A stretch of DNA of 64,000 nt. Origin: Chaetoderma sp. LZ-2023a. Taxonomy: Eukaryota; Mollusca; Caudofoveata; Chaetodermatida; Chaetodermatidae. Shown piece by piece: positions 3,341-64,000 of the stretch. The notes under the pieces are model-generated. The model was not told the origin of the DNA and searched no databases. It worked only from the letters and a program-made list of their open reading frames with translations. Position 1 is the stretch's first letter. Each line of letters opens with the position of its first letter. The DNA lies in assembly GCA_034401795.1 (NCBI GenBank), contig CM067370.1:100634164-100698163 (forward strand). Reading direction: 5' to 3'. Made by a program: the position numbers and the translations under genes.

Positions 3341-4997
3341 CACCTGTGCAAAAGTTAAGCACCAGCAAAAACAATAGAACATAGAAACATGATGGTACAA
3401 CTAGGCTGCCATACTTTTTGTCCCCGCGTTAGCTGACATAATTCCAAGTACGGAATGCACATGCATGCATGACTTCACGCCGCTTGATGTCCGTGCGTGG
3501 CGGGAAACAGCACACGTGTTCAGTTATGTAAAAGTCCAGTTTGAGGTGTAGAACATTACGTACAGACTTAGGCGACAAGATTAGGAATTTTGTGTTCATG
3601 ACCGTGGTTTATTTGTAGAGAGAGAATTAGCTCTTGATTGTGAACCGCTATGGCAAGACGAAGGTTAAGTGATCGTGTGAAATGGCAAATCATAGGCATG
3701 CATACCACTGGTATGTCATGCAGAGAGATTGGCAGACAGCTGAACATTAACCATACTGTAATCAGTCGTTTGATTGCAAAACATGGGCAAACTAACGAGG
3801 TGAAGGACAGGCCTAGATCTGGAAGACCGAAGAAGACTACTGCCCGTGATGATCGAGCCCTAGTACGCCTTGTTAGGAGATCTCCATTCACCAACAGCAG
3901 AGTGCTCAGCCAGCAATGGGAAACGTGCAATAGAGTGTCAATGTCTACCGTCAAAAGGAGACTGTATGCTGCTGGCATGAAATCTAGGAGACCTGTCAGA
4001 CGTCCTCTCCTCACTGCACACCACAAAGAGGAGCGTCTGAGGTGGTGCAACGAAAGAAGACACTGGAACATGAGATCCTGGAGACGGGTACACTGGTCCG
4101 ATGAAAGTCGGTTCCTGCTTCATGCCACAGATGGTCGAACTCGTGTATGGAGGTCCAGACGCACGGCGTACGACCAACGTAACATCATGGAAGAAGTTCC
4201 ATTTGGTGGAGGTTCCGTTATGATATGGGGGTGCATCTCATTTGATTGTAAGCTGGATCTGTTGACTGTACCTGGAACACTAAATGGACAAAGATATCAA
4301 GATTCCATACTGGATAGAGTTGTGGTCCCTCATTTTGTAAATCATGCACCTGGAACCCACCCTATATTCATGGATGACAACGCCCGACCACATCGTGCTA
4401 GAGCTGTGCATGAATACCTCCGCCAGAATGCCATCGAAACCCTACCATGGCCAGCAAGGAGCCCTGACATGAACCCTATTGAGCATATCTGGGACATTCT
4501 GGGAAACATGGTGAGAAGGAGGGATCCTCCTGTGCAGAACCTACAGGAATTAACAGACGCACTCCATCTTGAATGGCAACGAATACGACAATGGCGTATC
4601 AGTCGGTTGGTGACCAGCATGAGACGTCGTGTCCAGGCCGTCATCCAGGCACAAGGTGGATATACCCGGTATTAATAATGACAGTCTCAAACTCGTGCAC
4701 AGATGTTAAACTTCGTTTTCAGACACCATTAATGACAATCTAGCCACATGTGTCAACTGTAGGGCAATAGTTGTCAGTTGTGTCAACGTAACCATATTCA
4801 GGCCTCGTTTTCAAGTTCAAACATAAACATACAGTGTTTCCCCACCACCATAATCAGCATTCCTCTAGTTGCATTATTACCTCTTGCACTAAGATGGATG
4901 GGTACATAAATGTTTATGCTATTGCTTTCTTCATAGCACATGAATATACCCTCGCATGTGCGTAAAAATAGGGTGGTGCTTAACTTTTGCACAGGTG
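3341..4997 (+). mobile_element. Tc1/mariner-type transposon, copy 1 (intact)
   Basis: The 1,657-bp element has 24-bp terminal inverted repeats beginning CACCTGTGCAAAAGTTAAGC, flanked by the TA dinucleotide duplicated on insertion (3339-3340 and 4998-4999). It contains one uninterrupted transposase gene. Two further copies, at 30779-32434 and 44186-45842, lie in the opposite orientation and are nearly identical by eye, implying recent activity. Intact ends plus an intact gene make this copy a plausible autonomous element. Confidence 0.96.
3650..4675 (+). CDS. Tc1-type DD34E transposase, 341 aa
   Basis: This transposase would bind the inverted ends and cut and paste the element into TA sites. 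The N-terminal ~110 residues carry paired helix-turn-helix DNA-binding regions (MARRRLSDRVKWQIIGMH; then RPRSGRPKKTT, an AT-hook/GRPR-like linker). The catalytic DDE domain follows: first Asp in WSDESRF, second Asp in MDDNARPH, and Glu in SPDMNPIEH. There are 34 residues between the second Asp and the Glu, so it is DD34E. The length is usual for Tc1 proteins and the frame has no breaks. The ATG lies 309 bp inside the left end and the stop lies 322 bp before the right end. Expression in the host is not shown by sequence alone. Confidence 0.96.
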   Translation: MARRRLSDRVKWQIIGMHTTGMSCREIGRQLNINHTVISRLIAKHGQTNEVKDRPRSGRPKKTTARDDRALVRLVRRSPFTNSRVLSQQWETCNRVSMSTVKRRLYAAGMKSRRPVRRPLLTAHHKEERLRWCNERRHWNMRSWRRVHWSDESRFLLHATDGRTRVWRSRRTAYDQRNIMEEVPFGGGSVMIWGCISFDCKLDLLTVPGTLNGQRYQDSILDRVVVPHFVNHAPGTHPIFMDDNARPHRARAVHEYLRQNAIETLPWPARSPDMNPIEHIWDILGNMVRRRDPPVQNLQELTDALHLEWQRIRQWRISRLVTSMRRRVQAVIQAQGGYTRY

Positions 4998-16922: not shown

Positions 16923-19312
16923 AGTATGCAGTGGCCGTGAGTGAGATAGTGAGTCAGCATCCTGTTGGTCTTGCTGGGAATCATCATTGTTAGTACGTGG
17001 GCTGCGCCATGCGGGTGGAGACATGCCGACTTCGTCCGTTCTGCCAGATGTTTTTTCAGCGGGTTTTTGCTGCCATGCTTTGGTCTTTCGAGATTGGTTA
17101 GTTGACGAGTTGATATGCATTGCTTTTAGGCGGGGAGGAAGTATTCTGTCACCTGTATGGCTGTTGTGATGGGGTCTCTCAGAAGCGGTATTTTGTGTTG
17201 AATGACTGCGCTGCAGGTTCTGATACCGATCAGGTGATTGGTTGTTATGTGATGTGTACTGACCAGATGATGTCATTCTAGTGCTGCCCTGTCTACCATA
17301 ACACGGTTCTTCAGCAATATTCTGGGATGGCCTACCATGAGGGAACTGGTTATATGGTGTGCTATGCTGGTTTTGGGGCAGCCACCGAGGTGAAGTACTA
17401 GTATCATACGGTCCTGGTGCTACACGTACGTACTGGGGGTAGTTCTGAGCATCAGTTTTCCTTGGGGGGAAGCCTGTACAGAGACGCATCTCGGTTAGGT
17501 GATCTATATGCTTGTGGCTGTGCTAGGTTTGTCACTACTCCTGGAATGTTGCTTGAATTCTGATGAGCACTGCAAGGTGCACACGTCTGACTACTGAGAG
17601 GGCTTTGTTCAAGTTGAGTCTCTAGGTGATATACTCTACTTTCAAGCATTTTCATTTCCAGATCAGACACCCTTGCAATAAGGTACTGCATTGATCCTCC
17701 ATCTCCTGCTTCGTTGGGTCGAGTGTGAATGTTACCACGACACTCACTGTTACAGCAGTGTCGATTCGACCAAGGCATGTTCTCTGGCTGCGTGGAAGCT
17801 TCTGGTGTGGCAGCTGCTTTCAAGAGAAGCATCCTATTAATTTTGTTCTCCAGGATGGTGATATAAGACTGAGAGTATGTGTTTTGTTCTAGATTGTGCT
17901 TCAACTCAAATTCTTTGGCTGCAGTTTTCTTTTCCAGGTCCCTGAGGCGCTTTTCCTTGCTCGCTAGTAGTTTCTGTCTGTGCTTTAGCTCGTTTTTATG
18001 ATACAATCGTCATTAATCAGGATTCTTGCTGGTATATTGCGTTCTGTTGGATTATGCTTATCTGAAGAGTGTTCCACATCTTGCATGTCTAGTGGCTGCT
18101 CATTAAGCATTGCCTCTAATGATGTAGTCGCTGGGTCTGCACCACTACATGGTAGATCAGCAGAGGCATGTCCAGGTTCTAGGGATGGAAGAGGGAACAT
18201 GATCGACACACACTGGACCATCACTATGAAGTAGTTCCAGGTCACTGGATTATATACGGGTTGGTGCTGTCTCAGAGTTTATATCGGTAGAACATATCTC
18301 TAGACTTGAAGTATTCATCCCTGGTGATGCCTTGAGCGGGTGCTCTGGTTGCTTACAGGTCACACATCTGTATAAGCATTCTGGGTCTGCTAATACAGGG
18401 TCGTCATCTTGTAATTTCGCATAGCTGGCATGTGTCCAAGACTGATATAAGCAGCATTCTACTGCTAAGTGGTCGCACTGGACGATGTAATTGCATATCT
18501 GGCATGCAGCTTCATCAACGTTATGTCTCAAGGGAGAACAAGACACATTGTGGATATCTGTGCAATGGGATAATGGTTCATTTCCATGAACCTCAAGCGC
18601 CAGTAAATTATCAGCAGTGTGATTACATGCATAGTTATGTGTATGTTTATCACGACTTGCATTCTTCTCCAATTTTCTGTCACCCCCAGCTGCCTGCTTG
18701 ATGGTTTCATTTATCTGTTGAGCTGTAACAGGTTGTTTACTCAGGACATCTTCAAGAATCGGGATATGGCGTGATCTGAACACCTTGATCGCGTGAGGGC
18801 CATTTAGCAACATCTTTGAACGTGTGTTATACATGTTGATTGTGAATTGTTCCTGCCTGCCAAATGCGCCAGCAGAGGTACGGTTACACACCCTTAGCTG
18901 CTCTTCTACTGTTAGATTGGACTCCTCTCGGATTGAGGTAAGCTTAGCAATATGGGTTTTAGATGTACATCTGGCAGCACCACAGTGGAATTCAATGAGG
19001 AAGTTCTTAGCAATTTCATAGGCTCCTGCACTCATGGTTAACACCAGTTGTCCGTCATGGCTACCATCTTTGACCAAGACCTGGATTGCGGGGACATGGG
19101 CAGCCAGTAGCTTCTTATTGATTGCTTTACCCCAATTCAACATGTATTCTTTCTGTTCTGTGCCGCTATGGTCTGGGCCCTTGAAATAAATGCTTCGAAA
19201 GTATATCGAATTGAATTTCCCTCTTCACCAAAACTGTATTCCGAAGATGAATTTCGTTAATGGTCACCAATAAATGGAACTCGGTGTTCATGTCTTTCTG
19301 ATGGTTCGCCAT
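16407..19312 (-). pseudogene. LINE E1 ORF1: shared domain, PHD-like zinc region, coiled coil
   Basis: ATG at 19312 opens MANHQKDMNTEF. A frameshift near 19180 leads into 18250-19143. That frame contains a region reading EQFTINMYNTRSKML that also occurs in E2 (see findings). It then has a zinc region with CQIC, VECC, WTHASY and CLYRCVTC, which is PHD-like but with Tyr where the HxxC Cys is expected. After breaks near 18250 and 18000, a charged coiled coil follows (17700-18000, RLRDLEKKTAAKEFELKH), then a Gln/Ser/His-rich tail to 16407. No SGNH esterase was seen. The likely role is RNA/chromatin binding in the retrotransposition particle, inferred from CR1-like ORF1 proteins. Confidence 0.7.
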
Positions 19313-20069: not shown

Positions 20070-20248
20070 CTTCTTAGATAGCTGAATTTATGAATTTACT
20101 TCCTTAACCCGTTAATGGTCAAATTTGGTATAAAAATGTTAAATATCTGTCTGTTGAGTGTATATATATATATTTGCCTTTTTTGCCTGTTTAGGCTAAT
20201 CAGCATACATTACATGAAACAAACAATCAATATAAATTACAGTAATTA

Positions 20249-20393
<145 letters not shown>

Positions 20394-20602
20394 TTTATTT
20401 ATTTATTTATTTTGTATTTAGTGCCCCCCCCCCCCCTCCCCATACGTATCGAGCATATTCGGACACATACACACATATATATATAAGTAAATACATATGC
20501 GCATGCACGCACGCATGTGCACACCCGTGCACACACACACACACACCATATATAATATATTTACAGATCCTGTTCTATTTTAATCACACAACGGCGAGCT
20601 GA

Positions 20603-23600
20603 TTATGTTGTGGCTGACATGGCAGAAATTAGTTCCTTTCTATACTCCATCATGCAGTGAATACCTTTACATGCTTTCGACATGTTGGCTATGTTAATGA
20701 TACTAAAGCACAGTAAGTAGACAAGATGTAATAAAGGATCCTGGGTGCCAGTAAGATTCTTGAGGTGTGGAAAATTTGAGTACCTCAAGTTTGACAAATC
20801 ATCACAGATGATTAGGAAATGTGTCTCATCTTCTACCCCTTCACCACATAGTTTACACAATCTATCCTTTCTATCAATTCTGGAGTGGCGCCCAGTTTCA
20901 ATCTCTAGCTGATGAGCACTGATTCTAAGTTTGGCTGTAGTCGACCGGTATTTGAAAGGCACATTGGAAGTAAGGTATGGTTCGATTCCATAGGTATGTT
21001 TCATGTGTTTATATGTTGGAAGTTTGGGAGAATTTTGGATAGCATCAAAGAAGTACTGTTCATACTGATTTCGTAGGTGTGTTCTGACGATGTTGGTTGT
21101 GTACATAGCTGGCTTTTGTAACTTCCACACATCATCAAGTCCAGCTCCAGCTAAGACAGTCTTAACTACTGTCAGCCATGAGCTGATGCTGTTATCTTGG
21201 ATTAGATGGAAGTCAGATAATTAAGCCTGCTTAATTATTCTGGTATTAGGCACAGATAGAATCCAGATCCAGTGCTTAATAAGCCTAGCAAGAATCTCAA
21301 TAGTAAAGGGACACATTCCTGTTTCGGCCTTTGCAGCTATGTTTGATGCATATTTATGTACGCCAATACCATTTTTGCAAAATTTGTTTAACAGTTTTTC
21401 GAAATGGACTTGATCAAGTTTCTCAAATTTGTTTGCCAAGAATAGGTTTGCTGCTTTTGCTCCCCAAATTTCGCCATTGTGTAATAGGATTGGTTTGATT
21501 AGTGAGCCAAACAATTTTATCTGAACATTTGGGTTGACTCCACCGAATTGCATGTAGCTGGACTTAATCTTGAAATATGCCCTCAGTGCCTTGTTGTACT
21601 GGTTCTTTATATTCTGGCTAAAGATTCAAGATGTTTGGAATGTGGTACCGAGATAGCAATAATTATCTGTTATCACTAGTTCGTCATTACCAAGTGCAAA
21701 TGAAAGATTTTTACATTTCCTACCAGACTTGTTAAATATTATGATTTGAGTTTTATCAAGGTAGACCTTCAGTGACATCTTATTACAGAATGCATGAAGC
21801 TTGTCAAGATATCGCTGCATCCCGTCAGCCGTTTCGGATAACAACATGAGGTCGTCAGCATATAGTAGGTGATTTAGGCATTCAGTACTTAGTGCTACAG
21901 GTTCACATAATTTATCGAAAGTGTCACCAATACCATCTACAAATAAATCAAACATGATGGGACTGAGATTATCCCCTTGTTTTATACCAGTGTTGCTTAG
22001 AAATGATTCAGATACACCACTACTGGTTTTAACTCTGTGCCTAGTAATGGAGTGCATGGATTTTATTAAGTCATAGAATTTTCCTCCCATCCCGGTTTCT
22101 ATAATCCTAGACAGTAGTAGATCACGATTTACTTTGTCAAAAGCTTTACTAAAGTCGACAAAACAGGTGTACAATTTCTTATTTTCTGAGTGAACATATT
22201 TATTGATGAGGCTAATTAATGTCTGGGCATGATCAAATGTCCTAAAATTGGGTCTGAAACCAGCCTGATTGGTACTAAGTATGTTGTGTTTATTGATGCA
22301 ATTGATCAGTCTCTTGGCTAGGATACTGTTAAACAGTGTACCTGGGCAGCTAGTAATACAAATTCCTTTATAGTTATTGCAATCAACTGGGCTTCCTTTT
22401 TTATGAATTGGTATGAGTGTACCATCATTCCACTATGAGGGGAAGTTACCGTTGCAAAATGCTATGTTAAAAAGTTTGGTTAGGTGTGACAGTAGTGCTT
22501 GACTTCCAGCTTTAATCATTTCATTTAGGATCAGGTCATCACTGCTGCATTTACCAGTCTTGGTAATGTTTAATTGCTGCAAGGATCTCAGTAGTAGTAA
22601 GAGGGCCATTGCGTTCATCTAGAGTTGGGATATTAGATTTTTCAAGTTCAATAAGTTTCTTTTTAGACGAAGTCACCTCCTTGTCATTAAGCAGGGCAGT
22701 AAAATGGTTTACCCATTCACAGTGGCTTATTTCAATTGCAGTGTCGCTGGGCATAGGATTCATGGAATTAACTATTTTCCAAAATTCTTTTTTGGTCGCA
22801 AGTGTAAGCCGCATTGATTTTTCCTAAAATGTTCTCCTTATGAAGTTTTTCCTTATGCTTGATATTTTTCTTGTAAAGTTTAGCATTTTGAAAGTATGTG
22901 TCCCTTAATTTGTTGTCAAAAGGTTTCTTATGGAGTTGTCTTCCAAGTTTTAGGACATCACGACTCATGGATCCACAGTCAGCATCGAACCATTTCTTTT
23001 TCAATGTCGATTTATGTTCCATGTGTTTAGATTTTTGCCTAAAGTGTTTAATCCTAAGGCTTGCTTGTCCAGCAACAAATAATATATTGCGGAATTCATC
23101 TACTGCTTCTTCTGTCCCTTCCTGACTGTTCTTAAATGCTTTATTTTTTAAGTTAGCTAATAAACTGGCCACTTCTGGACTACACAGCGGTAGTCTAAAT
23201 TTGTCTGTGGAGCCATCCTCCCAAACAAATTTTGGTGGGGCTGGGTTTAGTGAATTAGGATCATGGCCATTTCTTTGGTCAGCGTCATGTAAGATTGTAT
23301 CAGCCGTGAGGGAGAATGATATCTGACAGTGGTCTGAAAGGTAGTTTATTGGGCTAACATGAAAGAGGTCGATCCTACTTAATAGGCCAGTTTCAACCAC
23401 AACATAATCAACTACACTAGCTCCATTGTATTTATGGCACGTGCAATAGCCTAAGGAGTCACTTAGATAGCGTCCATTGAGTATTTTCATATTTGTGGAT
23501 ATACAAAGGTCAGTGAAATCTTTGCCAAATTCATTAACGTTTGGGTCTAATTTGAATCGTTGGGGTGGTATCGTATCGCTGATAAAGAAGACATCATCAT

Positions 23601-24141
23601 CAAGCTGACCACTCCTTTCGTTTTATGTAATAACAAAGTCAGGTAGCATGCCAGTCCTGGAATTGAAGTCTCCCATTAGTATGACATTTCATAAGTTGGA
23701 ATATACCGCAATTTCATCCTCAATGAAGTCAAAGAGTGATATTTGCTGGTTACTAGTTTGACTGGATGAACGTTTGGGTGTAAAGTAACCCATGCATAAG
23801 AAAATATTTCGCTTGAAACCAAAAAAGTCTTTGTCTAGTTTGATCCAAATTAAATCGATACTCTTGCTTTTAAAGTGGCTTATGCCAGGTATGAATCGCG
23901 ATTTGAAGTAGATGATGATACCACCACTGTTTCGGCCTTTAGTCATTCGCTTGCGTCTATAGGAATGGAAAAAATCATATCCTGGTATGGACAATTTGCT
24001 TATAGGGGTCTCTGAGGTTGTCCATGTTTCGCATAGACCAAATATGTCACAATCAAGGACGCTATCCAGGAAGACTTTGTCTTTCAGCCTGCTCTGTGAT
24101 ACACGTCCTTCAATATTCCAGGCTCCTAATTTGAGCTTCAT
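20603..24141 (-). pseudogene. LINE with APE endonuclease and RT, decayed
   Basis: ATG at 24141 opens MKLKLGAWNIEG and an endonuclease with LCETWTT, then NYLSDHCQISFSL near 23320. The RT shows FVDFSKAFDKVN (near 22160), SNTGIKQGDNLSPIMFD and the intact catalytic LLYADDLMLLS near 21850. The C terminus has CKLCGEGVEDETHFLIIC near 20860, a Cys/His motif of the same design as in the 60-63.5 kb LINE, to which this copy is clearly related. Breaks occur near 23690, 22800, 22550, 22435, 22175, 21626, 21555 and 21220. Its 5' side touches a TA/CA-rich tract (24226-24283). The exact LINE clade is not assigned. Confidence 0.85.
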
Positions 24142-24283
24142 GTTGTCTATCTATGTAATGAAGTTTGAAGTCGCAAATCTTTTACCCTTTCAGAACATAC
24201 AGGTTATATAAAAATGTGTCTACGTTATGTATACATATATACATACATATACATACATATACACATATACACACATACATATA

Positions 24284-25565
24284 CCATGCTGGAGTCAGAG
24301 TACAATAGGCGTAAAACGCCTAGGATTGAATTGTGACATGTGAAAGCTGGTCGGCCAAACCTTAACTTTTAGTCTTATCGCTGTGGTCCAGTGGAAAGAT
24401 GTCTGATTGTCGATGCTATGCAGAGTTGCAGAATGGCAGTTCGATCCCCCGATCGGGAGATGGTGATCAACAAATTAAACTAATGGGTGCATGACTGTTG
24501 GCTAGGTTAGCACATAGAAATTGAAGCCGCACGTTGACAGTGCATCAATAAAATAAAAAAATACATATACTGCCAGCGCCGTGCTGGAGTCAGAGCACAA
24601 TAGGCATAAAAAGCCTAGGATTGAATTGTGGCAGGCGCATCCACAGATAGTCACATATGAATCGCCATTGTGTCAGTATATCAGACATGTGAAAGCTGGT
24701 CGGCCAAACCTTGCCTTTTAGTCTTATCGCTGTGGTCCAGTGGAAAGATGTTATGCGAAGTTGCAGAATGGCGGTTCGAACTCCCGAGTTGGGAGATGGT
24801 GATCAACAAATTAAATTAATGGGTGCGAAGCCGCACGTTGCCAGTGCGTCAATAAAATTAAAAAAATACATATACTGCCAGAGCCGTGCTGGAGTCAGAG
24901 TACAATAGGCGTAAAAGCCTAGGATTGATTGTGACAGATGCATCCATAGATAGTCCCATATGAATTGTCAGTGTGTCAGTATATCGGACATGTGAAAGCT
25001 GGTCGGCCAATCCTTGACTTATAGTCTTGGTGCGGTGGTCCAGTGGAAAGATGCCTGGTTGCTGATGCTATGCGGAGTTGCAGGATGACGGTTCGATCCC
25101 CCGACCGGGAGATGGTGATCAACAAATTAAACTAACGGGTGCAGCACTGTCGGCTAAGTTAGCACATGGAAATTGAAGCCGCACGTTGCCAGTGCGTCAA
25201 TAAAATAAAAAAAATACATATACTGCCAGAGCCGTGCTGGAGTCAGAGTACAATAGGCGTAAAAGCCTAGGATTGATTGTGACAGATGCATCCACAGATA
25301 GTCCCATATGAATCGTCAGTGTGTCAGTATATCGGACATGTGAAAGCTGGTCGGCCAATCCTTGACTTATAGTCTTGGTGCGGTGGTCCAGTGGAAAGAT
25401 GCCTGGTTGCTGATGCTATGCGGAGTTGCAGGATGACGATTCGATCCCCAGACCGGGAGATGGTGATCAACAAATTAAACTAACGGGTGCAGCACTGTCG
25501 GCTAAGTTAGCACATGGAAATTGAAGCCGCACGTTGCCAGTGCGTCAATAAAATTTTTAAAAAAT
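24284..25565 (+). repeat. Tandem array of four tRNA-derived SINE units
   Basis: Four units start near 24284, 24578, 24883 and 25231, each opening with (C)CRTGCTGGAGTCAGAG and closing with an AATAAAAT-type tail plus ACATATACTGCCA. Each has a pol III box A, TGGTCCAGTGG (24384, 24733, 25036, 25384). Each also has a box B of GGTTCGATCCC type (24438, 24773, 25090, 25438), spaced as in a tRNA-like head. Units 3 and 4 are nearly identical. Unit 1 lacks about 50 bp of the middle section, and unit 2 lacks two short segments. The tandem head-to-tail layout is unusual for SINEs. Confidence 0.85.
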
Positions 25566-25738
25566 ACATATATATATGTACGCTCACACGTGCGCGCGCA
25601 CGCACACACGCACGCACGCACACACTAGCATATACACAAGTATTGTTACCCTAAATTAAAAGGTAAATGAATAGGATTAAGCAGAATATATATTACTGAT
25701 AGAATAGGTCTTAGGTATGCTTCTATTGTATGGATTCT
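25566..25738. repeat. Mixed TA/GC/CA simple repeat
   Basis: Short TATATATG, GTGCGCGCGCACGC and ACACGCACGC stretches join the SINE array to the 3' side of LINE ORF1 E2. No ORF2 of E2 is present here. Confidence 0.7.
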
Positions 25739-28302
25739 TCAGAACATGTCACCCTGCAATGCCATAACGAGCGTCTGAATAGCATCACGAACCATGTTCG
25801 GATTAGACCTGTGCTGAGTGGTCAGTCTTCTGAAATCAGTCCCATGCTGCTGCCACCTATTTTGTGGGTGGGTTGGGGGTTTATTGTTGTTGGTCTGCCG
25901 CTCCTGTTGCCCATATCTCTGCCTGTTACTGTGATCATACTCTGGTGTTTCCTGGTCTGTAAGCCTCATCCGCTGGTGGTCATTTATTATTCCATGTGTG
26001 AAATCATTTGGTCTCTTGGGATGATGTATGTCACGGCCCTGTGTTCCTATGTGCTGGACCCGTTGAATGGGAGGTGACAGTGCACGGTCATACTGTCGAG
26101 GGGAATGCTCAGAGGATTTGTTGTGGGAACTATCCTTTCTTATATAGTCCTGATATGGTCGCATCTTGAGAGCTGTGTTCGTACAATGCTTGATGTTACC
26201 TATGAGGGCCCTCAAACCAACATTAGTGAGGTGAATGCCATCGCGTGCACTGAAGTATGTGGGATTTGATATGTTCTCATTTTGCACCACATCTGAAATA
26301 ATTTTATCACGATGAAAGTGTTTTAGAGCCCTATTGATTGTATCAACTCTGTCATTAACATGGTCATTGAACGGTCGATGTGGTAGTGAGTTCATGATAA
26401 TATAACATTCTGGGTACTTCTCTTGTGTTAACTGGGCCAATTGTAACAACCTATCGATGCAACATTGGGTGTCTGCTGTAATGGGTTTAATGTCATTAGT
26501 GCCAACAATAAATATGATGGAGGCTGGATTTGTGATCGGGCAGTTCGACATGTATCTTCCACCACTACTTTTTTGTATCGATATAATGACTCAGCCTGGA
26601 TACCCTGTCCCAGTGAAATTGTGATGATAAGGAGGTCATACTCATTACTGACAGATTTACCTGGACCCGAGCTAAGTACTATTGGGACTTCTGTAGAATC
26701 TGATGGGCTTGTTGGGACCTCTGTGTGTCTTACATTATCCTGATACTTCTCCGTGTAGTTTGTTGTGTGCACAGTGTCACAGTTTTTGTTTTGCTTATGT
26801 CTTCTGTGAGAACAATGCTGCCAGTGCATTGTGTCATTGTTAGTTGTATGAGCTGTTGCTGTTTCTGGTTTCCGGGTGTTTGATGGAATTGCCTTCTGAT
26901 CCATCGTATGCTGCATGCAGTCCGCATACAGTGTGTTCATATGACCTGACAGGTCAACTAGTGAGTGTTTCAATTTATCTTCTATTTTAATGATGTTGGT
27001 ATAGAGTCCTTTTACAGTTAGCTCGGCACTTTGCATTTTATTGCTAATGCGTTCAAGCTCTTTTGGCAAGTCTCTTAGCTGTTGTTGGGATTCCTCTATT
27101 CTATTTGTATGCTTATCTAGTTTTTCCATGTCACTTGTTTCTAGTGTGTCTATTCGTGTGTCCATTTTGCTTAACATTTCACTTTCACCTGATGCCTGTT
27201 TCAGCTCAACCTCCTTGATTCGCCTACATAGGGAGTCGATGCTCTTAGTGAGCATTGTGATATCACTTGATTGTTTCCGAATAATAGGTTCTACAGAATT
27301 TAGTATAGACCGTTATATTTGCCTTCAATTTCTTGAAGTGACGAAACTACTTTGCTAAGCTGGTCACTACTAAACTCAGTTTGTCGTGCAGTTGATTTCC
27401 GTTTTGATGGCTTGATGTTTGAACTGTCAGCTTTTGTAGTGTCACTCTCTACTGCGTGTGCTGCCTTAGCATCTGTGATAGGCATATGTGATGTCAAGGG
27501 CTGACATACTGCACAATAGTACTCTTGCTCTGTCGACTCCAGGACAGCCAGGTCTTCCAGCCTAAGGCGTGTACAGTTATAATGCAGCCATACCTGACAG
27601 AGTCCACACATAATCATTTTTTCATTGGGTGGCTCACTGCACGCTGAACAGATGCTCTCCGGATTGTGAGATTTTATGTCAAGTGAAGGTATCTCAAGGT
27701 CCATGGCTGGTGATTTCCAATCTGCTAATACCGAGGAGACACGTTCGGATAGTGTTGGATAATGTTCTAATGTCCACAGTAGGTATGAGTGTCCCTGGGT
27801 GAGGATCTTCGCCGTGTGATAGATGGTAATTGATACAGGACCAAGCTATACATCATCATATATACCTATTCTGCTGTATGGTAGTTTAAACTGGGTGCAA
27901 TTTATATTGGGCTTTGAAATGTTTGTTGGGTTTCTGTACTGCTCATTACACACTTTGACCCATGCCTCTATAGTGTTCTCTGGTATAGAGAGTAATGCTG
28001 AAAGTGTTCTCTGTCACGGTATACCCTAAGCTGGCCACATTTTGATTAGAGGGGACGCTATGACTGGTATGTTTAGCTAGATGTTGACCATACGCGAGTC
28101 TTTTATTAGAGTCCATAAGCATAGAATATGCTGCGTTGAGCGTCTAGAATGCTTGTTTAGCTGTTTCTTTGTCAGAACTTTCCTTATCCGCGTGACATCT
28201 TCTGGCAAGTAGCCTATATATACGTTTAATAACGTCTAGTGTTGCATGGTTTTCCACCTCTAGTATTTCGTAATAGCTTTTGTCTATTACACTTTCAGCC
28301 AT
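25739..28302 (-). pseudogene. LINE E2 ORF1: J domain, PHD finger, coiled coil, SGNH esterase
   Basis: Read on the minus strand the locus is collinear from ATG at 28302 to TGA at 25739. Order: J domain (28078-28302); a domain ending VSITIYHTAKILTQG near 27830, shared with E1 ORF1; a canonical C4HC3 PHD finger (27504-27650); a coiled coil (about 26950-27250, KQASGESEMLSKMDTRIDTL); an SGNH esterase-like domain (26200-26640); and a Gln/His/Pro-rich tail. Esterase blocks are TISLGQGI (Ser kept, GDS degenerate), FIVGTNDI and DGIHLTNVG. PHD plus esterase is known from CR1-like LINE ORF1 proteins. The J domain is the unexpected part. Breaks: a TAG at codon 53, a frameshift near 27980, a TAG near 27850, a break near 27300 and a frameshift near 26540. 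Confidence 0.82.
28078..28302 (-). other. J domain (DnaJ-like) at the N terminus of E2 ORF1
   Basis: Codons 8-75 align with the whole J domain. They contain SYYEILEV, then IKRIYRLLARRCHADK, where the Hsp70-activating HPD tripeptide reads HAD (codons 37-39). After one TAG stop at codon 53 (28144-28146) come LNAAYSMLMDSNKRLAYGQ. Helices I-IV and the YxxL and KRxxYG landmarks are all present. J domains dock Hsp70 chaperones. The Pro-to-Ala change would be expected to weaken Hsp70 stimulation, unless Pro is present in active copies of the element. Confidence 0.85.
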
Positions 28303-32544
<4,242 letters not shown>

Positions 32545-44185: not shown

Positions 44186-45842
44186 CACCTGTGCAAAAGT
44201 TAAGCACCACCCTATTTTTACGCACATGCGAGGGTATATTCATGTGCTATGAAGAAAGCAATAGCATAAACATTTATGTACCCATCCATCTTAGTGCAAG
44301 AGGTAATAATGCAACTAGAGGAATGCTGATTATGATGGTGGGGAAACACTGTATGTTTTTGTTTGAACTTGAAAACGAGGCCTGAATATGGTTACGTTGA
44401 CACAACTGACAACTATTGCCCTACAGTTGACACACGTGGCTAGATTGTCATTAATGGTGTCTGAAAACGAAGTTTAACATCTGTGCACGAGTTTGAGACT
44501 GTCATTATTAATACCGGGTATATCCACTGTGTGCCTGGATGACGGCCTGGACACGACATCTCATGCTGGTCACCAACCGACTGATACGCCACTGTGGTAT
44601 TCGTTGCCATTCAAGATGGAGTGCGTCTGTTAATTCCTGTAGGTTCTGCACAGGAGGAGCCCTCCTTCTCACCATGTTTCCCAGAATGTCCCAGATATGC
44701 TCAATAGGGTTCATGTCAGGGCTCCTTGCTGGCCATGGTAGGGTTTCGATGGCATTCTGGCGGAGGTATTCATGCACAGCTCTAGCACGGTGTGGTCGGG
44801 CGTTGTCATCCATGAATATAGGGTGGGTTCCAGGTGCATGATTTACAAAATGAGGGACCACAACTCTATCCAGTATGGAATCTTGATATCTTTGTCCATT
44901 TAGTGTTCCAGGTACAGTCAACAGATCCAGCTTACAATCAAATGAGATGCACCCCCATATCATAACGGAACCTCCACCAAATGGAACTTCTTCCATGATG
45001 TTACGTTGGTCGTACGCCGTGCGTCTGGACCTCCATATACGAGTTCGACCATCTGTGGCATGAAGCAGGAACCGACTTTTATCGGACCAGTGTACCCGTC
45101 TCCAGGATCTCATGTTCCAGTGTCTTCTTTCGTTGCACCACCTCAGACGCTCCTCTTTGTGGTGTGCAGTGAGGAGAGGACGTCTGACAGGTCTCCTAGA
45201 TTTCATGCCAGCAGCATACAGTCTCCTTTTGACAGTAGACATTGACACTCTATTGCGCATTTCCCATTGCTGGCTGAGCACTCTGCTGTTGGTGAATGGA
45301 GATCTCCTAACAAGGCGTACTAGGGCTCGATCATCACGGGCAGTAGTCTTCTTCGGTCTTCCAGATCTAGGCCTGTCCTTCACCTCGTTAGTTTGCCCAT
45401 GTTTTGCAATCAAACGACTGATTACAGTATGGTTAATGTTCAGCTGTCTGCCAATCTCTCTGCATGACATACCAGTGGTATGCATGCCTATGATTTGCCA
45501 TTTCACACGATCACTTAACCTTCGTCTTGCCATAGCGGTTCACAATCAAGAGCTAATTCTCTCTGTACAAATAAACCATGGTCATGAACACAAAATTCCT
45601 AATCTTGTCGCCTAAATCTGTATGTAATGTTCTACACCTCAAACTGGACTTTTACATAACTGAACACGTGTGCTGTTTCCCGCCACGCACGGACATCAAG
45701 CAGCGTGAAGTCATGCATGCATGTGCATTTCGTACTTGGAATTATATCAGCTAACGCGGGGACAAAAAGTATGGCAGCCTAGTTGTACCATCATGTTTCT
45801 ACGTTCTATTGTTTTTGCTGGTGCTTAACTTTTGCACAGGTG
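44186..45842 (-). mobile_element. Tc1/mariner-type transposon, copy 3 (intact)
   Basis: 1,657 bp with the 24-bp inverted ends and flanking TA (44184-44185, 45843-45844). It lies inside the LINE RT gene between the RLYYNRT and YLNKNS coding blocks and is therefore younger than that LINE. Confidence 0.96.
44508..45533 (-). CDS. Tc1-type DD34E transposase, 341 aa
   Basis: Full-length and uninterrupted, the same length as copy 1, with first Asp in WSDKSRF (Glu-to-Lys beside the catalytic Asp), second Asp in MDDNARPH and Glu in MNPIEH. By eye it differs from copy 1 at about ten residues, including RRAPP for RRDPP and a C terminus HSGYTRY for QGGYTRY. The DDE residues are intact. The Lys change next to the first Asp could affect activity. 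Confidence 0.95.
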   Translation of the reverse strand: MARRRLSDRVKWQIIGMHTTGMSCREIGRQLNINHTVISRLIAKHGQTNEVKDRPRSGRPKKTTARDDRALVRLVRRSPFTNSRVLSQQWEMRNRVSMSTVKRRLYAAGMKSRRPVRRPLLTAHHKEERLRWCNERRHWNMRSWRRVHWSDKSRFLLHATDGRTRIWRSRRTAYDQRNIMEEVPFGGGSVMIWGCISFDCKLDLLTVPGTLNGQRYQDSILDRVVVPHFVNHAPGTHPIFMDDNARPHRARAVHEYLRQNAIETLPWPARSPDMNPIEHIWDILGNMVRRRAPPVQNLQELTDALHLEWQRIPQWRISRLVTSMRCRVQAVIQAHSGYTRY

Positions 45843-60162: not shown

Positions 60163-63100
60163 ATGTCCAAGAAGAACTGTGTGTCTCTCGCTTTTTGGAA
60201 CATTGACGGTGTTATCACTAGAAGCAGTGGCCAAAGATCATCCAAGCTAGATGACCCTGACCTTTTGGATATGATAAAGTCATACGACATAATAGGGTTG
60301 GCAGAAACGCATTGCAGTAACTCTGACATTCCTTTACTACATGCATCATTGCCAGATTACCTAATTAAATCCAACATAAGGCCTAAATCAGCAAACTCTA
60401 AAAGGCATTTTGGCGGAATCGCTGTTTGTATCAAGAAAGCAATTTGTGCCAGCATTAAATTTATGCCTATTAAAAACAGTGAGATTCTCTGGCTGCAATT
60501 ATCCAATTCCTTTTTTGGCATGAAACAAAATTTATACATTACCATTGTTTATATGAGCCCATCAGGGTCAAAATTTGCTGATAGCGGTGATGACATCTTT
60601 GGCCTACTTGAAACTGATATCGCCCACTATTCCAAATTAGGAAATTGTTTCATTTGTGGCGATTTCAATGCTCGCACTGCCTGCGATCAAGATTTTTGTC
60701 TCGATCAAAACACTTCAATTGCAGACACCCAACCAGATTATGTCTGCGACACTGTTCTCCTGCGAAATAATCAAGATGCCCACAAAGTAAACAAACATGG
60801 TGAGCTATTATTATCACTATGTAAATCTGCCAATGTGCGTATACTGAACGGGAGAAGCTTGGGTGATTACTTTGGCCACTGTACATGTTTTAGTTACCGC
60901 GGTAATCCAAGCCTAATAGACTATATGTTAACTTCTACAAACTTTCTAAATAATGTTGAATGCTTTTTTGTACATACTATTACAAATCTCTATCCATTAT
61001 ATGCTATCAGCTGTCTTAAGAACTGGACAATACGAGTACATGCGTGCACACCATGATTGTCCTAACCCACCTATCCCCAAGTTCAGATGGGGCAAACTCG
61101 ATGAGGTTATGTATATGCAAGCTCTCGTTAAGCCTGAAACCAAATCTAAAATTTGTGCTGTATTAACTGGTCATGGCATGGATAACAGCAATGAGCTAGC
61201 TCAGTCAGTTACCGATGTTATTATTGGTGCGGCAAAAATAGCGGGCATTAGACAAGCCATCAACAACCAAAAACGTACCAAAAAACCCAAAACCAAAAAG
61301 AAATGGTATGATGATGACTGTAGAGTAGTCAACAAGGAACTTAAGCAGTTATCACACAAACTCAGGAATCATCCATTTGATCAATCTATCTTGAGTGATT
61401 TCCGACGGAAAAGGAAAAGACTCAAGAAGTTGATCTCAAATAAGAAAACTCTTTACAAACAACAAATTCTGAATCAAATGGAATCAATCCATACTAGAAA
61501 ACCTAAAACCTTTTGGAAACTTTTCGACAACCTCAGAGATTTTGACACAAAAACTAAAAACAACCCAATCCCCTGTTCAGATTGGGTAGCACATTTCAAT
61601 AAACTGCTAAATGAAGCTCCACAAAAAACAGATAACAATTTTGATAATATTATGGATGGCTTCATTTCAGCGAACAAAAACAAGATCTTTAATGAGCTAA
61701 ATTTTGCTATGACCACTGACGAAATTTCACGCTGTATCACCAAGCTAAAAAATGGCAAAGCATGTGGTTTAGACGTGATCCTCAATGAGATGCTAAAGGC
61801 AGGCCACAACTATTTTCTTCCAATCCTGTGGAAGCTATTTAACCAGATCCTCCTGTCTGGTGAATTTCCGGACACCTGGCGATGCAACCTTTTAAACCCT
61901 ATCCATAAAAAAGGTGACATATTTGCACCTGAGAACTATAGGGGTATTGCAATTGGAAGCAATCTCTGCAAACTTTTCTGCAGTGTGTTACATCATAGGC
62001 GTGTGAAATTTTCTGATATCAACAACGGTGTCCCGCAATGCCAAATTGGCTACATGGTCAATTCACAAACGGCAGATCATACATTGACTTTGAAATCAAT
62101 TATTGACAAATACGTCAACTTGATTTCAAAACAATATGTTTTCTGTTGTTTTGTTGATTTCAAATCGGCCTTTGACACAGTTTCCAGAAGAGCCTTAATT
62201 TTTAAGCTTCTTCAATCAGAAATAGGTGGTAATTTTCTAAATATAATTCAGAATATGTATTCTAGTGTTCAATATGCTGTGAAACTTGAGAATGGACATA
62301 GTAATTACATTTCTTCGACTGTAGGTGTTAAACAGGGCTTTGTTCTGAGTCCTTTGTTATTCAATATTTTCATCAGTGACCTTCCGGCCATCTTTGACAA
62401 GGAATGCGACCCTGTCTACTTATGCAATACTTCCATAAGTTGCTTGATGTTTGCTGATGATCTGGCCATTGTGTCGCATAGTCCTCATGGACTACAACGA
62501 GCACTAAACCAATTAGGTGATTATTGTGACAAATGGAACCTGACCGTTAACTTATCAAAAACAAAAATTATCATCTTTAACAAGGGTGGTAAGGTCATTA
62601 AAAGATTCACATTCACTTTCAAATCATCCAGCATTGAGATTGTGCAATCCTACTGTTACTTAGGCATTGTTTTTACCCCGTCTGGTATATTTAACAGCGC
62701 ATGTGAGAGGCTCAAAGATCAGGCCCTAAAAGCACTCTTTAAACTCAAAGCGCTTAACGTACGGGAAAACATTTTAATTGCCTTTAGACTGTTCCGTTCA
62801 CTGATCATCCCAATCATTAGCTACTGTAGTGAGGTGTGGGCCCCATTCTACTTAAAGGGACTGAATGCACAGAATCTGATTAGCCTTAGTGAGAAAGTCC
62901 CAGGTGAAAAGGTTGTAATGAATTTTTACAAATACCTTCTTGGGGTCATTAGGAAGTCCACAAATGCAGCGGTAAGAGGGGAGTTGAGGCAGTATCCTTT
63001 ACTGGTCAGTATGTTGTCTCAATCTGCCACATATTGGCTTAGAATCCTTGAGAAACCAGCATCGTCCCTTGTTTATCAAGCATACCTTTCCTGTCACACT

Positions 63101-63552
63101 TTGCATGATAAAACCAGTAACTGGGCTACCTATATAAAAGACTTGTGGCATAAGTTTGATTGTGCTGGTGTTTGGGATAACCATGGTGCCAAGAAAATTA
63201 AAAAAATGGTTTCCATCCTGAGCAAATCTGTTAGATTGAATTATGCCAACAATTGGCACGACTGCATCAATAAAAATACCTCGGTGACCTCTAATTCTGG
63301 CTCTAAGTTAAGGTGCTACAAATCTTTTAAGCATAGCCTTTCAATCGAAAACTATTTGTTGAGTGAAAAGAATTTTTCAAAACGAAGAAATTTCTCTAAG
63401 CTGCGTATTAGCGCACACACTCTACAAATTAAAGTAGACAGGCATAAAACCCCAAGGGTCCCACCAAATATGCGATTCTGCATGATTTGCAACCAAAACC
63501 TAGTTGAGGACGAGAAACACTTCTTAATGGACTGCCCCTACTACTGCCAAGA
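60163..63552 (+). pseudogene. LINE ORF2: endonuclease, RT, Cys/His tail, nearly intact
   Basis: ATG at 60163 opens MSKKNCVSLAFWNIDG. The endonuclease has IGLAETHCS, TIVYMSPSG and CGDFNARTA. A single frameshift near 61010-61020 moves to a second frame that stays open to the family B insertion at about 63553. That frame holds KLKNGKACGLDVILNEML, ENYRGIAIGS, CFVDFKSAFDTVS, TVGVKQGFVLSPLLFNIF, the catalytic LMFADDLAIVS (near 62450) and, near the end, CMICNQNLVEDEKHFLMDC. The protein end and 3' UTR are missing. It belongs to the same family type as the copy at 20.6-24.1 kb and is much better preserved. Confidence 0.9.
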
Positions 63553-64000
63553 GAGAGTTTCTCCTTCGATCAATACTCACCATTCTATTACTTCTGATAT
63601 ACAGCTGGCCCTGACAGCTGGCTCTAGGACTATAGACTTAGAAAGCCTTACCGACTCCTTGGAACCGGGTACTCGGCTCCCAACTGCCGAGTACCCGTCT
63701 ACCATGAAGCAATTTCTTGTTTGCATAGCGACAAGAGAATACAGGCTTTTTGCAGTTGGAAAGTCTTACGATTGTTTAAGCCTAAGTCTTTTTACTGTGA
63801 TTAATTGTGATAGCTTGTGCGTTCTCAAAAGGATGTTTTGGATTAATATGGACGCTTCCGATGATAACCGGGTCGTATATTTCCATGTTATTCCATAGTT
63901 AAAAGACTTAGGTCTCTAAAATTTTGTCTGTGTCACATGTTCCAATTTCTAACCCCAAAGAATCTGGGACGTGTGTTAACAACGAAATATGCCAGATGAT
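63553..64000 (+). repeat. Family B repeat, copy 3, running off the window
   Basis: Starts TTTCTCCTTCGATCAATACT inside the LINE ORF and matches 8905-9346 in reverse. It has the conserved hairpin with GGTACTCGG and CCGAGTACC arms near 63668-63696. Reading of the LINE frame into this repeat (to 63898) creates about 115 artificial codons. Confidence 0.85.

Follow-up and report, generated by a model that had tools for sequence, protein, structure and literature searches.

Within a stretch of 64,000 nucleotides from the mollusc Chaetoderma sp. LZ-2023a, referred to below as the window, a LINE copy on the minus strand carries a J domain at the N-terminus of its ORF1. The domains succeed each other, all on that strand, in the order J, Nmid (a name coined here), PHD finger, coiled-coil region and SGNH-like esterase, and ORF2 follows. 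The J domain lies inside the element, and it was found in five subfamilies of copies. J domains are modules that stimulate Hsp70 through an HPD motif, and the copies described here are probably the remains of an old, now low-copy LINE lineage with a J-Nmid-PHD-coiled coil-esterase ORF1, in which J would recruit Hsp70 to the particle. The features of the window copy are the following.

20179..29030, minus strand: whole LINE copy, 5′ end at 29030 and 3′ end near 20179, both ends common to the window and copy L006
28303..29030, minus strand: 5′ untranslated region of the element; L006 is similar along its entire length, L007 and L008 align only from 28645 and 28650
25739..28302, minus strand: ORF1, interrupted by stops and frame changes
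28078..28302, minus strand: J domain, N-terminus of ORF1 (PF00226, E 4.2e-17; PDB matches DNAJB8, HCG3, DNAJB2, DNAJB6)
28186..28194, minus strand: HPD site, reading HAD in the window; HPD in 7 of 10 copies
28144..28146, minus strand: in-frame TAG within the J domain; CAG in L006, L007 and L008
27717..28013, minus strand: Nmid domain, found by tblastn in all ten J copies, partly deleted in L007
27504..27650, minus strand: PHD finger (PF00628, E 1.3e-7)
26731..27312, minus strand: ORF1 coiled-coil region; similar region in L007, L008, L020 and L023
26156..26646, minus strand: SGNH-like esterase (PF13472, E 1.4e-5, below cut-off; motifs)
24284..25572, minus strand: tandem array of units of about 350 bp between ORF1 and ORF2, units 82-87% alike; related units in L007 and L008
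20603..24141, minus strand: ORF2 with endonuclease, reverse transcriptase and C-terminal part (PF03372, PF00078, PDB matches)

The sequence-only reading of this locus had proposed a J domain starting at an ATG, collinear with the PHD finger and esterase and on the same strand, and this was borne out. With an X entered at the in-frame TAG, the segment from 28302 to 28078 scored 62.4 bits against the Pfam DnaJ profile (cut-off 27.8), and its ATG at 28302 stands in a Kozak-like context, CAACATGG, that is, close to the rule known for the surroundings of start codons. A linker of about 25 residues separates J from Nmid, for which no Pfam family above cut-off was found. The eight cysteine and histidine positions assigned to the PHD finger, in the frame starting at 27704, are correct, and the finger exceeds its Pfam cut-off with 32 bits. 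Both predicted SGNH blocks, GTNDI and DGIH, are present. The profile check thus upheld DnaJ and PHD; the esterase fell short, with 26.1 bits for a cut-off of 32.9 in the window copy, and the esterase of L020 (a diverged copy, see below) matched no Pfam family; the best PDB match for the esterase had E 0.23. Five copies (window, L007, L008, L020 and L023) were compared for the esterase motifs: GTND is kept in four (L008 has GTNG), DGIH in four (L023 has DGIR), and the upstream serine, within DLLIxTxS, in all five. This first block (26646-26551 in the window) has DLLIxTxS in place of GDS, the usual first block of SGNH esterases. The coiled-coil region gave weak Pfam matches below cut-off, to unrelated families. 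Structure models had pLDDT values of 61 and 43 and were not used as evidence.

The reverse transcriptase of ORF2 is of the LINE type (PF00078, E 6.4e-32; PDB matches R2 and LINE-1 ORF2), and the endonuclease gave Pfam matches below cut-off to PF03372 (E 0.0025) and PF14529 (E 0.0062). No convincing repeat was seen at the element ends that could be a target-site duplication; microsatellites are present at both ends. By eye, part of the tandem array 24284-25572 looked as if it might be tRNA-like.

The window copy is dead, which the sequence-only reading had not noted: J contains the TAG at 28146-28144, HPD has become HAD at 28194-28186, and the frame shifts near 28000, 27306 and 26550. A further TAG is found near 27848, in Nmid, and about 73 bp are absent at 27306 compared with L007 and L008. 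ORF1 was intact in no copy seen.

Taken by itself, this decayed copy, with J and Nmid out of phase and a stop in J, would be compatible with a J domain that belongs to some host gene, or to a processed pseudogene, located by chance beside a 5′-truncated LINE. The host genome (2.44 Gb, 2753 contigs) was searched with the 225-bp J segment, and all 4 candidates were matches: the window and three copies, L006, L007 and L008, at 94, 91 and 82%. These lie on other contigs, and their alignments with the window extend from J into ORF1 and cover sequence before J as well. Similarity between the window and L006 starts at TAGTTATTAA (29030) and runs inwards, the flanks before 29030 being unrelated. Since this abrupt 5′ end, shared by both, precedes the J start by about 730 bp, J lies inside the element. 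Alignments with L007 and L008 begin at 28645 and 28650, which means that these two copies either have another 5′ end or have diverged there. At the other extremity, the window and L006 share sequence down to about 20179, and L006 has no counterpart of the segment between 27306 and about 24236; the sequence retrieved for L007 and L008 showed no ORF2.

More distant relatives were obtained with the J protein of L006, which gave 11 matches among 29 candidates in the host genome: the window, L006 to L008, six further loci (L013 to L018) with 48-56% identity in J, and one contig with a bacterial-looking dnaK-dnaJ pair (L019). Nmid lies downstream of J on the same strand in all six of the further loci, and a PHD finger was recognised in L015 and L018 and, for a length of 20 residues, in L017. 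In a larger stretch around the L015 locus (L020), J, Nmid, PHD, coiled coil, esterase and endonuclease follow one another on one strand at about 50% identity; around the L018 locus (L023), the same order, again at about 50% identity, continues through the reverse transcriptase and the C-terminus of ORF2. In the larger stretches L021, L022 and L024, J and Nmid were present, and PHD and esterase were not found. Grouped by eye, the copies make five subfamilies: A (window, L006-L008), B (L013, L014), C (L015), D (L016, L018) and E (L017). The two members of B, almost identical in sequence, are separated by about 18 kb and point in opposite directions. As for the bacterial-looking pair, seen in both L019 and L025 (contig C19 near 244000), open frames resembling bacterial dnaK and dnaJ are adjacent there, and the contig looks like that of a contaminant or symbiont.

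J is thus upstream of Nmid in 10 of 10 scored LINE copies. The junction recurs, on the same strand, at other sites or on other chromosomes, both in the three close copies and in the six diverged ones, which agrees with the proposal that J is part of the LINE. Neither of the situations that had been named as speaking against that proposal, copies of the element beginning after J or a separate host gene, was seen.

The converse search started from Nmid and PHD, and 150 of 3122 candidates were scored. Among these, the Nmid body (in L007, what remains of it after deletion) occurs at eleven places, the ten J copies and one on C1 (L055), where a degraded J remnant lies upstream of Nmid (E 2.7e-6, HPD segment missing). 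J or a J remnant therefore accompanies Nmid at 11 of 11 places among the candidates scored. The remaining matches start at query residue 67 or later, mostly within the PHD finger, and many are in long open frames; they look like further PHD-bearing LINE families. Upstream of one such PHD fragment that was inspected (L056), neither J nor the Nmid body was found. Many PHD-bearing open frames of 500-838 aa were noticed in the host genome, several of exactly 761 aa, and these are probably other, younger LINE ORF1 families.

Of 80 candidates from a host-genome scan with PF00226, 41 matched, and these include the ten LINE copies, all above cut-off; the window and pieces of L006, L013, L015, L016 and L017 also passed it. 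Thirty J loci were fetched. Seven are LINE copies, each with Nmid, and Nmid or esterase was found at none of the other 23, eight further non-LINE matches being outside this set. An origin of the window J from an adjacent host gene was rejected, given the shared 5′ end, which leaves J some 730 bp inside the element, and the diverged copies that carry J; with Nmid and esterase also missing from these 23 loci, we consider it extremely improbable.

A J tree was built from 25 rows, namely the J domains of nine LINE copies (all but L008) and of 14 of the 23 non-LINE loci, and two PDB chains. The LINE J domains form one group (support 80/91, 84% of 200 bootstrap trees), separate from the other J domains sampled in the host genome. 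A single capture fits this grouping. We lean towards the view that J was captured once, before the subfamilies diverged, and has since been kept under selection as a self-encoded Hsp70 co-chaperone, with which the particle would recruit and activate host Hsp70 in cis.

One of the checks proposed with the sequence-only reading was whether J shares an open frame with the downstream ORF1. This held for phase, which is 0 from J to Nmid in seven of ten copies (L007, L008, L013, L014, L015, L017 and L018), and less well for continuity, the stretch being read without a stop in four (L008, L013, L014 and L015). The frame is closed by a stop upstream of J in all ten, and an in-frame ATG lies at most 8 codons before the first aligned J residue in six (window, L007, L013, L014, L015 and L018). 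Three copies, the window, L006 and L016, have J in another phase than Nmid, as would be expected if J were a separate small frame of the element placed before ORF1 and unfused to Nmid-PHD. The window and L006 shift, however, sits in a CT run, 2 bp shorter in the window and 2 bp longer in L006 than in L007 and L008; together with the common phase and the stop-free copies, this makes a separate frame very unlikely, and we retain an ORF1 in which J is fused to Nmid.

Divergence between subfamilies was then scored by codon position, on segments that had been found through protein similarity, which favours apparent constraint, Nmid and PHD being equally biased. It amounted, for positions 1, 2 and 3, to 0.328, 0.296 and 0.610 in J (2251 codon comparisons, from overlapping pairs), 0.392, 0.261 and 0.641 in Nmid (2334 codon comparisons) and 0.324, 0.324 and 0.634 in PHD (629 codon comparisons). 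J resembles Nmid and PHD in this excess of change at position 3. For two chosen non-overlapping pairs (L006-L013 and L015-L016), 144 J codons had 44, 41 and 86 differences (p=2.7e-9); the same test gave p=3e-13 for Nmid and, with one pair, p=0.046 for PHD. Within subfamily A, comparison of L006 with the three others showed 32 differences over 534 at positions 1 and 2 of J and 7 over 267 at position 3 (p=0.055, in the reverse direction). Lacking a third-position excess, J in this subfamily looks as if it had decayed after insertion. HPD is intact in seven of ten copies, L006 and all six diverged ones (L013-L018), and was lost in three of the four subfamily A copies (HAD in the window, HLD in L007, YPH in L008). 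Judged from codon-position divergence, J has been under protein-level constraint with HPD kept.

Both this constraint and the retention of HPD in the diverged copies speak for a benefit that the element drew from stimulating Hsp70. Some J-like domains have no co-chaperone activity, and J could have been retained for another role, as a structural cap, as an RNA or protein contact, or as a decoy tying up host chaperones; the HPD losses in the window, L007 and L008 would suit such a role. These losses are confined to subfamily A, where decay after insertion is likely, and the six diverged copies keep, besides HPD, the basic helix II and the KR..YD helix III pattern. A role other than Hsp70 stimulation therefore appears unlikely, and we favour the Hsp70 mechanism as the likely one. 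Binding of Hsp70 by the ORF1 J domain, and the step at which Hsp70 acts, are what we infer from these patterns. ORF1p would multimerise on LINE RNA through its coiled coil, and its J domains would present HPD to host Hsp70 and stimulate its ATPase, so that Hsp70 would be loaded onto the LINE particle in cis. There, it might fold or assemble ORF1p and ORF2p, or loosen the particle ahead of target-primed reverse transcription, and PHD and esterase might mediate chromatin and lipid contacts. If this is true, a LINE with its own Hsp70 activator offers a one-motif handle, HPD, on the part played by host chaperones in LINE retrotransposition. That part is poorly understood, Hsp70 proteins being found in human LINE-1 complexes; HSPA8 and HSPA1A are among the proteins listed for the ORF2 complexes (PMC5821459).

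The best PDB sequence matches of the element's J domain are DNAJB2, B6 and B8; here J leads into LINE ORF1 domains, unlike in DNAJB-type proteins, where a client-binding part is found. Polyomavirus T antigens are parasite proteins that carry an N-terminal J domain and exploit host Hsc70 with it, as proposed for the element. The likeness considered here is that of the J domain, with a DNA virus on one side and a LINE on the other; the T-antigen strategy would, if our reading is true, extend to retrotransposons.

LINE ORF1 proteins with a PHD finger or an esterase were reportedly described by Kapitonov and Jurka in 2003. That both occur in one ORF1 had been taken as established, which we could not confirm: in excerpts of Metcalfe and Casane (2014, PMC4120745), PHD and esterase are assigned to different ORF1 types, the esterase types being in vertebrate groups only, and the types are without a J domain. 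What our element has in common with ORF1s of the CR1 and L2 lineages is the PHD finger, the coiled coil and, going by its motifs, the SGNH-like esterase, located before an endonuclease-reverse transcriptase ORF2; it differs by its N-terminal J domain and Nmid. ZfL2-1 ORF1p (PMC3905857) has a coiled coil before an SGNH esterase, an order also seen here; our element adds J, Nmid and PHD in front, and its first block is TxS, not GDS. No description of a J domain in a LINE ORF1 was found among the literature matches listed, which cover few subscription journals, Repbase being outside the search. Three matches proved to be unrelated: a 'DNAJ' string within 'DNAJ Virol' (PMC4120745), the plant protein SILENZIO (PMC8616336) and DNAJB9, a gene listed beside an element (PMC9004415).

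Searches elsewhere relied on exact 5-residue words. In viral contigs, this insensitive search revealed no relatives with the J, PHD or RT queries or with an RT alignment. In genome contigs a single LINE turned up, within a cyanobacterial MAG contig; its sole open frame of at least 150 aa is ORF2-like. With two read-through queries, the protein database had no match at E 1e-3 (best 8000 candidates for one of them), and a five-copy alignment found, among its best 8000 candidates, two J proteins, neither with LINE context.

The window holds other elements. A second LINE ORF1 at 17450-19224 (minus strand) resembles the J element, by eye, in a PHD-like stretch rich in Cys and in a motif like that of Nmid, FTINMYNTRSKMLLNG, and has a different N-terminal part; it was rejected as a J relative, no Pfam family being found at E 0.1. 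Two nearly identical 343-aa open frames, at 3644-4675 (plus) and 44508-45539 (minus), resemble Tc1-type transposases, and a broken third copy lies at 31422-32131 (minus). Another LINE ORF2 is found at 60950-63898 (plus), with a 982-aa open frame; its reverse transcriptase and that of the J element share 40% identity.
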